This document shows positions 3,459-55,261 of a stretch of 64,000 bases of DNA, one piece after another; position 1 is the first letter of the stretch, and each line of letters opens with the position of its first letter. Origin of the DNA: Halobaculum sp. MBLA0147 (GTDB lineage: Archaea; Halobacteriota; Halobacteria; Halobacteriales; Haloferacaceae); NCBI RefSeq assembly GCF_041361345.1, contig NZ_JBGKAD010000001.1, positions 434,001-498,000 on the forward strand, written 5' to 3'. The notes under the pieces are model-generated. The model searched no databases and was not told the origin of the DNA. It worked only from the letters and a program-made list of their open reading frames with translations. Position numbers and translations under genes: made by a program.

Positions 3459-4067
3459 CTCGACTCACCTCGGCGGTCCAGCGGGGCGATCCCGAGCGTC
3501 TCACCCCGACGATCGGCCGACTCCACGGGCGACTCCTCGGCGGACGAGCGCGGTCGCGGTCGTCTCTCCACGGGCGACTCCTCGGCGGACGAGCGCGGTC
3601 GCGGTCGTCCGGCCACGGTCGAGCCCCGAGCCGAGCGCGGTCCCGTCCGACCCGGGCACTGTCGGTTCTGTCCGGTCACTTGTCGGGAGAACGTAGCGGA
3701 CGGTCGGATATAACGGTGGTGCCGTCTCACACGGACCGGAGAGCGGGAGCGACGCCCCCGGTGCCGCGACACGGAGGCGAAGTCGAGTTGTCGTGCGTTT
3801 TCTTCGCACGTCTGGATAAAATAATCACTCCGGAGCCTCTCGACTCCGAACGTGCGACTTCCGGTGCCCAAGGTTCATAAGTCGTGGTCGAGAACTGCTG
3901 TCGAGAGGTACTTCGACGGACGTGCGACACTCACTCGACACTAGCGGAGCGACCCGGTCGCGGCGGGTCCACGACGACCGCGGCACGGAGTGGCGACCGA
4001 CGCTCACTGTGGACACGACCACGACCGGCGAGCGACCACCGACACGTTCTCCCGAGGGTGACCTGCC
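3459..4067. other. Divergent gene-free region between hflX and the histidine kinase gene
   Basis: About 600 bases with no convincing gene. It holds a 45-bp tandem repeat near hflX, TATA-like sites (GTTATATCC on the minus strand at 3706-3714, TTCATAAG near 3874 on the plus strand), an AT-rich patch near 3815-3828, and a small hairpin (CGTGCG at 3792-3797, T-rich 7-nt loop, CGCACG at 3805-3810). It most likely carries promoters for both flanking genes and untranslated leaders. Confidence 0.5.
3521..3609. repeat. 45-bp tandem repeat, two copies
   Basis: Two nearly identical copies at 3521-3564 and 3566-3609, period 45 bp, each beginning CTCCACGGGCGACTCCTCGG. The period is a multiple of three so frames stay open across it, but no flanking gene-like reading supports translation. 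It lies in the leader or promoter region of hflX. Confidence 0.9.
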
Positions 4068-36457: not shown

Positions 36458-36967
36458 CTACGCGTCGCCCTCGTCGGCGTAGGATTCGAGCAGGTCGACG
36501 TACTTCTGTGGCCACCCTTCGCGTGCGAGGCTCAGTGGGCTGATTCCGACTTCGTTCTCGTGAGTCGGGTCGCCGCCTCGTTCGAGAATGCGCTCGGTCA
36601 GGTCGTAGTACGACTCGCCCACTGCGTGGAGGAGAGGTTCTACCTCGTACGCGTCTTTGATATCGACTCGTGCGCCGTTGTCGAGGAGTGTCTGCGCGAT
36701 CTCCGGATATCCCTCCTGAATTGCACAGTGGAGTGCCGTTTTCCCACCGTCGTCTACCGCGTCGATGTCGATTCCACGCTCCAAGAGATCCGCGACGATC
36801 TCTGTCCGACCCATAATCGTCGCTTCGTGTAGCAGTGTGTTGTTGTTCCCGCCTCTGTGGTCGAGGTCGGCGTCGTCGATCAGTTCGTCGTATTTCGACT
36901 TGTCGCCCTGTACGATAGCCGATTCGATGTCGGTACGACGGTACAGATCGTCTCCGTCGTCAGTCAT
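36458..36967 (-). CDS. Ankyrin-repeat protein, probable immunity partner of the upstream toxin
   Basis: A 169-residue cytoplasmic protein made of about four ankyrin repeats at roughly 42-72, 75-105, 108-138 and 141-165 (NTLLHEATIMGRTEIVADLL; KTALHCAIQEGYPEIAQTLL; EPLLHAVGESYYDLTERIL; SPLSLAREGW). The ATG at 36967 overlaps the end of the DUF4157/GH-E nuclease gene by 8 bp, so the two are translationally coupled. In polymorphic toxin systems the gene directly after the toxin usually encodes immunity, and ankyrin-repeat proteins are one of the known immunity classes; that role is inferred here. Base composition is less GC-rich than in the neighbours, as in the toxin gene. Confidence 0.88.
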   Translation of the reverse strand: MTDDGDDLYRRTDIESAIVQGDKSKYDELIDDADLDHRGGNNNTLLHEATIMGRTEIVADLLERGIDIDAVDDGGKTALHCAIQEGYPEIAQTLLDNGARVDIKDAYEVEPLLHAVGESYYDLTERILERGGDPTHENEVGISPLSLAREGWPQKYVDLLESYADEGDA

Positions 36968-38252
36968 CTCTGTGTTCCTCCAGGTCGCCCCACTTGTCTG
37001 CCCAATACTGTCCGTCTCGTTCATACTCGTGGCTCCTGTTCGCGCTTGGATCTTCGGGATGATAGTGCTCCGGGTCCTGATACTCCGACACGAATTCCTC
37101 CTCAGATATTACGCCGAGAAGATAGTACCTGACTAAGTACTGGTATTCGCGCCCCGGTTTGTGTCCCATCTCCCACGAGTCACCGTAATCCTCGAACGTG
37201 CCCAGTGGTTGACGTGTGTTCGGGTCCACGACAACGCCGTTGTCTGCCTTCCGCTTGGCACGTTCCCAGACTTCACGTCTCTGTCCCGGTTCGTCGTACT
37301 CCGGCCGTCGCTGTCGACCGAACCGCTTCTCCTCGTACTCCCCCCAGTCGATCTCGCCGAATTCGCCGTTGTCGCGCCGTGGCTGTCGTTCGGACCGCTG
37401 GAGGTACACGGGCGTGGCACCCAGCGCGTCGACACCGAGTGCGCTCCCGGCGAGGAGACGCTGGACCGTCGCACCACCCTCTCGTGAGCCGTCCCCGACG
37501 ACTCCCGCCACCGCCGGATCGAGTTTGGCGTCACGAGGGAGCATCGACACCGCCCCGGCCGTCTGCTGGCGAACGTGCGCCAACTCGTGGACCAAGACGT
37601 GTTGCCCCTCGGTCGATTCGGGATCGTACTCGCCGGCACCGAACGCGACGTGGTTACCGACGGTGAACGCTCGCGCATCGATCTCGTCGGCCGCTTCGGC
37701 TGCCTTCGGGCCAGTGTGAATCCGTACGTCGCCGAACGACTCGCCCATCCGCTCTTCGACGGCGCGCTGGACTGCCGGATCGAGCGACCGGCCAGGCGAC
37801 GAGAGTACTTCACGGACTGAGTCGGGAACGTCCGTCTCACCGGCCGGCCCCTCTCGCACTCGTCGGGCGACACGACCTGTGTTCTCGTCGAGAGAGTCCT
37901 GGTTGAACTCCTCGATGTCGTAGGGAATCTCGGAGTCGCGGCGCTCTCTGAAGCGTTGGATCTTCGACTGGTCACCCATCGCGTCAAGCGGAATCCCCTC
38001 GTCGATCCACCGGTGGACCTGTCCACCGTACGCCTTCTCCAACCGCTGCAACTCTCTGTACTCCTTCGCACTGTCTATCTCTCGACCGTAGTACGCCTCT
38101 GCTTCCTCCTTCGTAGTTGGCCCGGCGGTGTTGGGACCGACCGCAGCGTCCGACGGCCACCGCTGGCTCTCCTCACCACTCTCCGTGCGACTCGCCTCTG
38201 CGTCGTTCGTCTCTGCGCTCCTGTTTCGGGACCGCCGCGACCGTCGACTCAT
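36960..38252 (-). CDS. DUF4157 (eCIS core) protein with C-terminal GH-E nuclease toxin domain
   Basis: A 430-residue modular protein. Residues 1-50 are basic then acidic and disordered. Residues about 149-232 form a DUF4157 domain: SSPGRSLDPAVQRAVEERMG, ESFGDVRIHTGPKAAEAADE, then the zinc-protease motif HELAH (222-226). Residues about 325-412 match the HNH/endonuclease VII-type GH-E toxin domain: WEMGHKPGREY with G363/H364, followed by YYLLGVISEEEF, E400 and the N-x-SH segment ANRSHEYE with H408. DUF4157 is the core domain of cargo linked to extracellular contractile injection systems; GH-E is a nuclease toxin fold. The ATG at 38252 has an AT-rich TATA region (38271-38287) upstream. Lower GC than its neighbours suggests transfer. 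Confidence 0.87.
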   Translation of the reverse strand: MSRRSRRSRNRSAETNDAEASRTESGEESQRWPSDAAVGPNTAGPTTKEEAEAYYGREIDSAKEYRELQRLEKAYGGQVHRWIDEGIPLDAMGDQSKIQRFRERRDSEIPYDIEEFNQDSLDENTGRVARRVREGPAGETDVPDSVREVLSSPGRSLDPAVQRAVEERMGESFGDVRIHTGPKAAEAADEIDARAFTVGNHVAFGAGEYDPESTEGQHVLVHELAHVRQQTAGAVSMLPRDAKLDPAVAGVVGDGSREGGATVQRLLAGSALGVDALGATPVYLQRSERQPRRDNGEFGEIDWGEYEEKRFGRQRRPEYDEPGQRREVWERAKRKADNGVVVDPNTRQPLGTFEDYGDSWEMGHKPGREYQYLVRYYLLGVISEEEFVSEYQDPEHYHPEDPSANRSHEYERDGQYWADKWGDLEEHRDD

Positions 38253-38401: not shown

Positions 38402-38409
38402 CTATTAAC
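38402..38409 (+). promoter_or_regulatory. TATA-like element of the leadered gene at 38518
   Basis: CTATTAAC on the plus strand. With the usual spacing of about 26-28 nt, transcription would begin near 38430-38433, exactly where the structured leader begins. Confidence 0.55.
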
Positions 38410-38432
38410 AACCAGCGAGCACAACGCCGAGA

Positions 38433-38517
38433 CACGACACTGCGGGGTCGTCACTGCAGCAAAGTGGCAGGGTGCTGGTGACACCCTACCTCCGCAGTGT
38501 CGTGGAAGGCCACGACA
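38433..38517 (+). promoter_or_regulatory. Structured 85-nt leader with two mutually exclusive folds
   Basis: Fold A: P1 pairs CACGACACTGCGG (38433-38445) with CCGCAGTGTCGTG (38492-38504), 13 perfect pairs, enclosing hairpins P2 (38450-38455 with 38463-38468, 7-nt loop) and P3 AGGGTG/CACCCT (38469-38474 with 38482-38487, 7-nt loop), a three-way junction. Fold B: TGTCGTGG (38498-38505), AAGG loop, CCACGACA (38510-38517), ending at the base before the ATG. The two folds compete for TGTCGTG. This looks like a translational switch; ligand or protein unknown. Confidence 0.65.
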
Positions 38518-39051
38518 ATGTGTTCGAACGATTCTCCGTCTGAAAAGGATGACGGGACGACCGAGGTACAGCCACTGCTCGACAGCTACGACACCCACCT
38601 GGAGACGCTCCGACTGCTCCCACTGCCGGAGTACCGCACGAGGGAGCTCCACACCGCGACAGAAGCGGTCCGCGACAGACTCACAGCGAGCGGGTTCGTC
38701 CCGCCGACACAACTCCAGCACGTCCTCTGCGTCGTCGCCGAGGCGATCGGCGACGTGCAAGCAGCCGCGATGGGTGAGCCCGACCGCCTCCCCGAGGCAC
38801 CACGCCACCCGGTCGGCACACCCCGTGACGAGTACGCGATGACACCCGCCGAACGCGAGACGGTACTCGACGGGCTCACGAGTCTCCAGTTCACGCTCGT
38901 CGAGACACCAACGCTTCCCGACGGCTGGCGCCAGCGACTCGCCGATCACGACGCCGATTTCGACACGCGGTCAGACACCGTCACGAGCGACGACACCGGA
39001 GTCGACGACGCCACCGGAGCCGTCGACGCCGCCGACCCCACGTCGCCGTAG
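38518..39051 (+). CDS. Protein of unknown function behind a structured leader
   Basis: I do not recognise the family. The ATG at 38518 gives a 177-residue protein starting MCSNDSPSEKDD; GTG 38497 in the same frame lies inside the leader structure. Residues 20-85 are helical (LLDSYDTHLETLRLLPLPEY, then ELHTATEAVRDRL, then QLQHVLCVVAEAIGDVQAAA), residues 108-150 again helical (TPAERETVLDGLTSLQFTLVE), and the tail is an acidic Asp/Thr/Val stretch. No signal peptide, membrane helix or catalytic motif is apparent. It is divergent from the toxin-immunity operon, with only about 265 bp between the two starts, so it could be part of that accessory island. Confidence 0.7.
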   Translation: MCSNDSPSEKDDGTTEVQPLLDSYDTHLETLRLLPLPEYRTRELHTATEAVRDRLTASGFVPPTQLQHVLCVVAEAIGDVQAAAMGEPDRLPEAPRHPVGTPRDEYAMTPAERETVLDGLTSLQFTLVETPTLPDGWRQRLADHDADFDTRSDTVTSDDTGVDDATGAVDAADPTSP

Positions 39052-39172: not shown

Positions 39173-39571
39173 ATGGCCGAACCGCCGGAGGTGCCGGAAC
39201 TGGACGCCGGGCTGTCCCGAGAGGAGGCGCGGGCGCTGAAGGAGTCGTTCGACGAGGCGGAACGCGAGCGGATCCAGACGACGGTCGCGGATCTGCTCGA
39301 CCTCCTCGGCCGGGCGCACGCGATGGCCGTGTTGTCGACGTTCGCCTTCTCCGAGGAACCGCTCCGCTTCTCCGATCTGGAAGACGAACTGGAGATCGCA
39401 CCCAACACCCTCTCGACGCGTCTCTCGGAACTCACCGAGGCGGGGCTGCTCGACCGGACCGCCTACGACGAGATCCCGCCGCGGGTGGAGTACACACCCA
39501 CCGAGCGCGCCGAGGCACTGTTCCCCGTGTTCGCGCACCTCCACCACTGGGCGATCGAACACGATCTGTGA
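39173..39571 (+). CDS. HxlR-like winged-helix transcriptional regulator
   Basis: A 132-residue DNA-binding protein. After an acidic start comes a winged helix-turn-helix of the HxlR kind: IQTTVADLLDLLGRAHAMAVL, then LRFSDLEDELEIAPNTLSTR (recognition helix region) and LSELTEAGLLDRTAYDEIPPRVEYTPTER (wing). The C-terminal helix FPVFAHLHHWAIEHDL likely dimerises. HxlR regulators usually control oxidative or xenobiotic responses near their own gene. The convergent neighbour is a vanadium haloperoxidase. ATG 39173 is preferred to an upstream start because it begins just before the acidic N-terminus. Confidence 0.87.
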   Translation: MAEPPEVPELDAGLSREEARALKESFDEAERERIQTTVADLLDLLGRAHAMAVLSTFAFSEEPLRFSDLEDELEIAPNTLSTRLSELTEAGLLDRTAYDEIPPRVEYTPTERAEALFPVFAHLHHWAIEHDL

Positions 39572-54956: not shown

Positions 54957-55261
54957 CTCCACACCGAACACCGACTGGTCTGCCCTCCGGTTCGGGTCTC
55001 TAGGTGCTCGGACACACGATACGTCGGTGGCCTCGGCACTCATAGGGCTCGTCGTCGCCGGGTGCCAGCCGGCTCGGCCCGGCGCCTCGTCATCGGCCAC
55101 CGCCAACTCTGCCGGCCGCAGGCAAGTGCGTTCCCCTCCGATGCGACCACGGGACGCGACGCCCGATCCACCACCACCACACGAGTCACTACACATCCGC
55201 CGTGCGCGAGCGACGCACCTGGCCGGTACACTGATACTTGCCGTGCGAGTACGTGACACGC
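54957..55261. other. Gene-free region after the M48 protease gene
   Basis: About 300 bases with no supported gene on either strand; all open frames are arginine/cysteine/proline-rich shadows. It ends with the probable TATA-like CTGATACTT (near 55230-55238) of the small zinc-finger gene. Confidence 0.5.

Follow-up and report, generated by a model that had tools for sequence, protein, structure and literature searches.

In bacterial translational riboswitches and attenuation leaders, an aptamer-like junction is closed by a stem, P1, and the 3' arm of this stem is shared with a helix near the initiation site. The same arrangement is present in an 85-nucleotide (nt) leader of the haloarchaeon Halobaculum sp. 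MBLA0147, located at positions 38433–38517 of the 64-kb stretch of DNA analysed here (hereafter the window, to which all positions refer) and immediately 5' of an ATG at 38518. The haloarchaeal leader differs from its bacterial counterparts in several respects. It has no known ligand, its second helix abuts the AUG and masks no Shine-Dalgarno sequence, its P1 stem is very stable without a ligand, and it has been found only in Halobacteriales.

The fluoride riboswitch of Thermococcus kodakarensis was described in 2021 as the sole experimentally determined natural riboswitch in archaea (PMC8241225). Like the present leader, it is a natural archaeal leader RNA thought to control translation, but it has another fold and is found in other organisms. 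The haloarchaeal leader matches no model of Rfam 15 at the gathering threshold, and its best permissive matches have E values of 8–10. In Haloferax volcanii, synthetic theophylline riboswitches control translation through a structure hiding the AUG (PMC8241225). These constructs contain a Shine-Dalgarno sequence and are opened by ligand, whereas the masking form of the haloarchaeal leader is the less stable one. Most haloarchaeal mRNAs lack a leader (72% in H. volcanii), and control by structured leaders has been called not typical (PMC4983044). Given this view and the single natural precedent, a two-state leader is surprising.

Two further systems resemble the surroundings of the leader. The repressor region of phiH1 and phiCh1 likewise combines a small divergent repressor with an early operon whose first transcript is leadered. 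However, neither gives a convincing model match, and the phiH record places an antisense RNA over that leader. Both were rejected as members; the top match outside the leader scored 18 bits and the one at the T1 leader 11.9 bits. Haloarchaeal toxin-immunity loci with the eCIS_core domain (DUF4157) (PMC11566945) share the toxin plus immunity-like layout of the divergent neighbour in the window, but the leader and its downstream gene stand apart from that system in most other genomes.

Two folds sharing one arm

The leader belongs to an RNA structure family that had not been catalogued before and that is multicopy, order-wide, and linked to the early regions of viruses and plasmids. That the family is real and conserved is close to certain. 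In the window, the forward-strand segment 38433–38504 forms a three-way junction closed by 13 perfect pairs, in which the 5' arm of P1 (38433–38445, CACGACACTGCGG) is the exact reverse complement of the 3' arm (38492–38504, CCGCAGTGTCGTG). The preliminary description, made from the letters of the window, had proposed this junction, and its coordinates are all correct. The junction is also the minimum-free-energy fold of 38430–38520, with an energy of −45.7 kcal/mol and a z score of −4.19 against dinucleotide shuffles, one of 200 of which was as good. P1 is extended by pairing of 38446–38448 with 38488–38490. The junction encloses two hairpins supported by both folding and covariation, P2 (38450–38468; 38450–38455 with 38463–38468), which has GNRA-like loops in many homologues, and P3 (38469–38487; AGGGTG at 38469–38474 with CACCCT at 38482–38487), the most conserved core.

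Alternatively, CCACGACA (38510–38517) can pair with TGTCGTGG (38498–38505), which draws on the same 3' arm. The resulting hairpin, P4 (38498–38517, TGTCGTGG-AAGG-CCACGACA), ends at the start codon. The P1 pair is the sole perfect 13-bp inverted repeat with a loop of 3–60 nt in the window, but shuffled windows hold 0–3 of these each (mean about 0.8). The repeat is thus not evidence by itself, and the case rests on homologues, whose conservation of the fold excludes a chance origin.

A 5' stem encloses exactly two hairpins in 83 of 87 collected leaders, and in 84 of the 87 a P4 hairpin ends 0–2 nt 5' of the start codon. The strands preceding the AUG differ completely across lineages (CACGAC, GAAGC, AGAACC, CCGACA, ACACCC, and CCAAGC). 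Those found outside the window genus (GAAGC, AGAACC, CCGACA, and CCAAGC) still complement the P1 3' arm of their own leader. Within the genus, two copies (L043 and L046) have AACACCC in place of CACGACA before the AUG, and the partner of this strand in the same 3' arm is GGGTGT. The predicted competition of two strands for one arm is therefore retained even where the sequences are wholly different.

Both helices covary in homologous leaders, the check that the preliminary description had proposed. When 29 diverse leaders are aligned by sequence alone (alignment A5), 86.9% of the cells are paired, compared with 29–48% for slid structures, and both sides have changed in 15 of 24 pairs. The covariation score is 0.243 versus 0.123 for shuffled alignments, a value reached by none of 500 shuffles. 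P3 is paired in 96.6% of cells, with both-side changes in four of its six pairs. Among the genus leaders, RNAalifold finds covariation in P1, P2, P3, and a hairpin of the coding region, P5. Pairing of each arm with its own partner was assessed on 35 representatives of 80% identity clusters by 20,000 permutations. The pairing energies have z scores of −10.9 for P1 and −9.9 for P4, and no permutation reached either, although these figures are not strict probabilities because the representatives are related and their independence is overstated.

Of the bases in the arms of P4, 78% are also paired in P1, and at least four are shared in 30 of the 35 representatives, so the two folds exclude each other. 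As judged from these comparisons, the junction and P4 are mutually exclusive conformations that are both kept by selection. The leader thus combines the properties of a cis-regulatory structured leader, namely conserved pairing, compensatory change, a fixed position before the start codon, and two conserved conformations of which only one can form at a time and whose helices both covary. It is assigned to mutually exclusive regulatory leaders and not to riboswitches.

The position of the promoter is conserved as well. The TATA-like box CTATTAAC lies at 38402–38409 on the forward strand, where the preliminary description had located it, about 27 nt 5' of the first paired base. In the family, the best TTTAWA-like hexamer mostly starts 24–33 nt before the first P1 base, and A/T content in the 35 representatives peaks at −33 to −25 from the stem. 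This spacing suggests that the transcript probably begins at the first base of P1, which would make the P1 5' arm the predicted 5' end of the RNA. A GTGGCCGATAGACTACTGAG-like stretch is conserved between the TATA box and P1 in several lineages (L187, L196, L199, L201, and L167) and is possibly an operator or initiator. A coding function of the leader was also considered. An in-frame GTG is present at 38497, but the close copies in the same genome vary in length from 84 to 87 nt and break the frame, and the candidate was rejected.

Distribution and genomic context

A covariance model built from the genus leaders (R1) reached other haloarchaeal families. A second model, built from 29 diverse leaders (R2), matches 165 of 392 Halobacteriales genomes and 61 of 95 genera at E ≤ 0.01, counts that are minima, since few candidates were scored in each genome. 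Among 247 genomes sampled across the phylum, none outside Halobacteriales carried the leader. All 13 positives fall inside the order, indicating that false positives are few. Carriers include Natrinema, Natronococcus, Natribaculum, Halarchaeum, Haloarcula amylovorans, and Haladaptatus, and the leader is also present on some uncultivated viral contigs. Five R1 matches (L107, L110, L111, L113, and L119), two pattern matches on viral contigs (L147 and L155), and one match in Thermoplasmata (L182) were discarded on visual inspection because they lack the junction or the hairpin next to the AUG.

Outside the window genus, about 32 of about 43 inspected leaders follow a divergently transcribed open reading frame of about 70–140 residues. 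Most leaders there have a small divergent regulator directly upstream, as in the early operon of a provirus. Twenty sampled regulators match helix-turn-helix Pfam models and the virus PHROGs 38164, 2440, and 26393. Two types can be told apart: a winged helix, which matches both PHROG 38164 and a viral transcriptional regulator family, and a protein matching PHROG 26393. No such regulator lies directly 5' of the window copy, where the divergent gene encodes an eCIS_core toxin. The downstream genes outside the genus encode short proteins, including some SWIM zinc fingers and one integrase. On annotated plasmids, the leader is followed by a series of hypothetical genes, and recombinases, transposases, or HNH/DUF262 genes lie in the vicinity.

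Humcor1, an induced provirus of Halorubrum coriense related to halovirus BJ1 (PMC7911831), is active and contains, like BJ1, a leader-like sequence in the same gap with a perfect P4 (GCTGTC-CACTAAC-GACAGC-ATG). With 16.4 and 14.7 bits (local E about 0.001), both score weakly in the model, and the two cases thus rest on position and anatomy no less than on score. The annotated valine start of BJ1 ORF7 falls inside the leader (L229:3547–3598). An in-frame ATG at 3598, right after P4 and 51 nt downstream of the annotated start, is the likelier start codon. No match was found in known phage records searched by DNA and by the SWIM protein of a relative. Overall, the leader family appears to belong with the early operons of viruses, proviruses, and plasmids, and to have multiplied in the host chromosomes of the window genus beside injection-system toxins, CRISPR-Cas, and restriction genes.

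The number of copies per genome was derived from BLAST and covariance-model searches. Segment 38390–38530 has seven near-full copies (89–100% identity) and three weaker ones in its own genome. At E ≤ 0.1, the model finds up to 13 places there and 11, 28, and 24 in sister genomes, the weakest of which are doubtful. The estimate is therefore about 10–13 copies for the genome of the window and about 10–25 for each of three sister species. Copies of the genus differ internally and keep a sense orientation to the downstream gene. Most copies in the own genome adjoin genes with an eCIS_core domain; this genome has 16 scattered eCIS_core (DUF4157) toxin-like genes, about half with a leader copy alongside. 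Copies in sister genomes adjoin Cas4-Cas1-Cas2, type IIG restriction enzymes, DUF1156/DUF499 methylase systems, and PIN toxins. In two species, the leader and its downstream gene are directly beside Cas4-Cas1-Cas2 (L017 and L071). Another leader, in Natrinema hispanicum (L166), adjoins apparent Cas6/Cas8/Cas7/Cas5 genes, as read by eye.

In the window, the leader precedes a gene (P0001, 38518–39051, forward strand) whose 177-residue product begins MCSNDSPSEKDDG and belongs to a genus-restricted family with no Pfam match. No relatives were found in Pfam or the PDB, and PADLOC gave two isolated weak matches. The predicted structure from the single sequence was poor (pLDDT 52) and was not used. 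Constraint at the nucleotide level extends into the coding region. In the window genus, it takes the form of P5 (38536–38555, CCGTC...GACGG with an A-rich loop), which shows both-side changes within the genus; in many other lineages, a GAAAARCGTACCG-like motif occurs about 27–39 nt 3' of the start codon.

The toxin-immunity operon that had been noted beside the leader is borne out. On the reverse strand, a gene for an eCIS_core (DUF4157) and GH-E nuclease toxin (36960–38252; Pfam E 2.5e-29 and 1e-25) is followed by one for a protein with ankyrin repeats by Pfam (36458–37024), likely the immunity protein. This toxin neighbourhood of the leader is specific to the genome. An HxlR-like winged-helix regulator (39173–39571, forward strand) is located directly 3' of the leader gene and was not seen at the other copies examined. 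The window also contains the box C/D RNA sR-tMet (RF02163, 75.9 bits) at 55029–55098 on the reverse strand.

Proposed mechanism and alternatives

We propose that the leader is a cis-acting translational switch, with the AUG open by default and masked by P4 once the 5' arm is displaced, and give this reading a probability of roughly 55%. Transcription would start at or beside the first base of P1, and the nascent RNA would fold into the three-way junction, with P1 around P2 and P3. The junction would hold the shared 3' arm and leave the surroundings of the AUG comparatively free, constituting a default permissive state. If the 5' arm is bound by a factor, trimmed, or absent, the freed 3' arm could pair with the strand just before the AUG. 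The P4 hairpin would then abut the start codon, and partly cover it in the window genus, lowering initiation. The two folds, their exclusivity, their conservation with compensatory change, their position, and the promoter spacing are read from sequence, while the relative stabilities and the costs of opening the AUG are calculated. From these we infer that the leader switches, that it does so in response to a trigger, and that translation is affected in the direction proposed.

Each of the 30 genus leaders, folded singly, forms the junction, with P1 as its minimum-free-energy state. When the P1 5' arm is removed in silico, most of them refold to P4, often spanning the AUG. In the 35 representatives, the full ensemble is calculated to be favoured over the ensemble with a blocked 5' arm by 8.8 kcal/mol on average. 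To open the region from −4 to +8 around the AUG takes 4.3 kcal/mol in the full ensemble; with the 5' arm blocked it takes 6.8 kcal/mol, and the increase exceeds 1 kcal/mol in 25 of the 35. The junction thus looks permissive and P4 repressive.

Several points weigh against the switch. The energies were computed for 1 M NaCl and 37 °C and not for molar KCl. Given its stability, P1 would form in most copies without any ligand, and nothing that would open it was identified in this analysis. No common signal is obvious either, as different lineages carry unrelated genes behind the leader. P5 is not universal, with z below −1.5 in 13 of 35 representatives, and the relatedness of the representatives tempers the permutation results.

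The stability of P1 and the predicted transcript start at the stem would also suit a structured leader that does not switch. The role of its junction would be to shield the 5' end or to attract ribosomes, and P4 would arise only in RNAs that have lost the 5' arm during decay or processing. Compensatory changes have nevertheless preserved P4 in leaders of very different sequence, and the hairpin stays within 0–2 nt of the start codon. A by-product would need neither, and we regard this account as fairly unlikely. If P1 were instead stabilised or opened by a small molecule, or by a protein of host or viral origin, bound to the conserved core of P2 and P3, the leader would be of the classical riboswitch type. 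The high conservation of P3 would fit, as would the small divergent regulator often found upstream and the occurrence of the leader before unrelated genes, which one shared signal would predict. The core pairs could be merely structural, though, Rfam gives no match even at permissive thresholds, and the downstream genes have no metabolic theme, and we consider a ligand- or protein-responsive leader clearly unlikely.

The element might also act at the DNA level, as an operator palindrome, recombination site, or miniature transposon with an incidental RNA fold, in keeping with its multiple near-identical copies, terminal inverted repeats, and some conservation of the flanks. However, G-U pairs, which a DNA cruciform would not keep, make up 95 of 974 P1 pairs, and many P2 loops are GNRA-like; both argue for RNA. 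In addition, the distance to the TATA box is fixed, the end is fixed at the start codon, and the element is always sense to the following gene. On the G-U pairs, loops, and promoter spacing, this reading was rejected as highly improbable. That the leader is released to act in trans as a small RNA, by pairing with other copies, is very improbable too. Such cross-pairing is possible in the genus, where nearly all copies have GTCGTG/CACGAC, but distant lineages with one or two copies keep the complementarity in cis using private sequences.

Implications for haloarchaeal gene control

The cis-acting switch can be placed in a broader picture, which we put forward tentatively and with less confidence than the switch itself. 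The leader may represent a new order-wide class of natural archaeal RNA switch that acts on translation by hiding or exposing the AUG, spread by haloarchaeal viruses and plasmids as part of an early control region and amplified in one genus to a chromosomal regulon that covers injection-toxin and defence loci. In that case, it points to a layer of control common to haloarchaeal viruses, plasmids, and toxin or defence loci. The leader is useful in annotating start codons, such as that of BJ1 ORF7, and provides a test case for the control of archaeal initiation without a Shine-Dalgarno sequence. The view that haloarchaea make little use of structured leaders would be contradicted by a two-state leader conserved in 61 or more genera.
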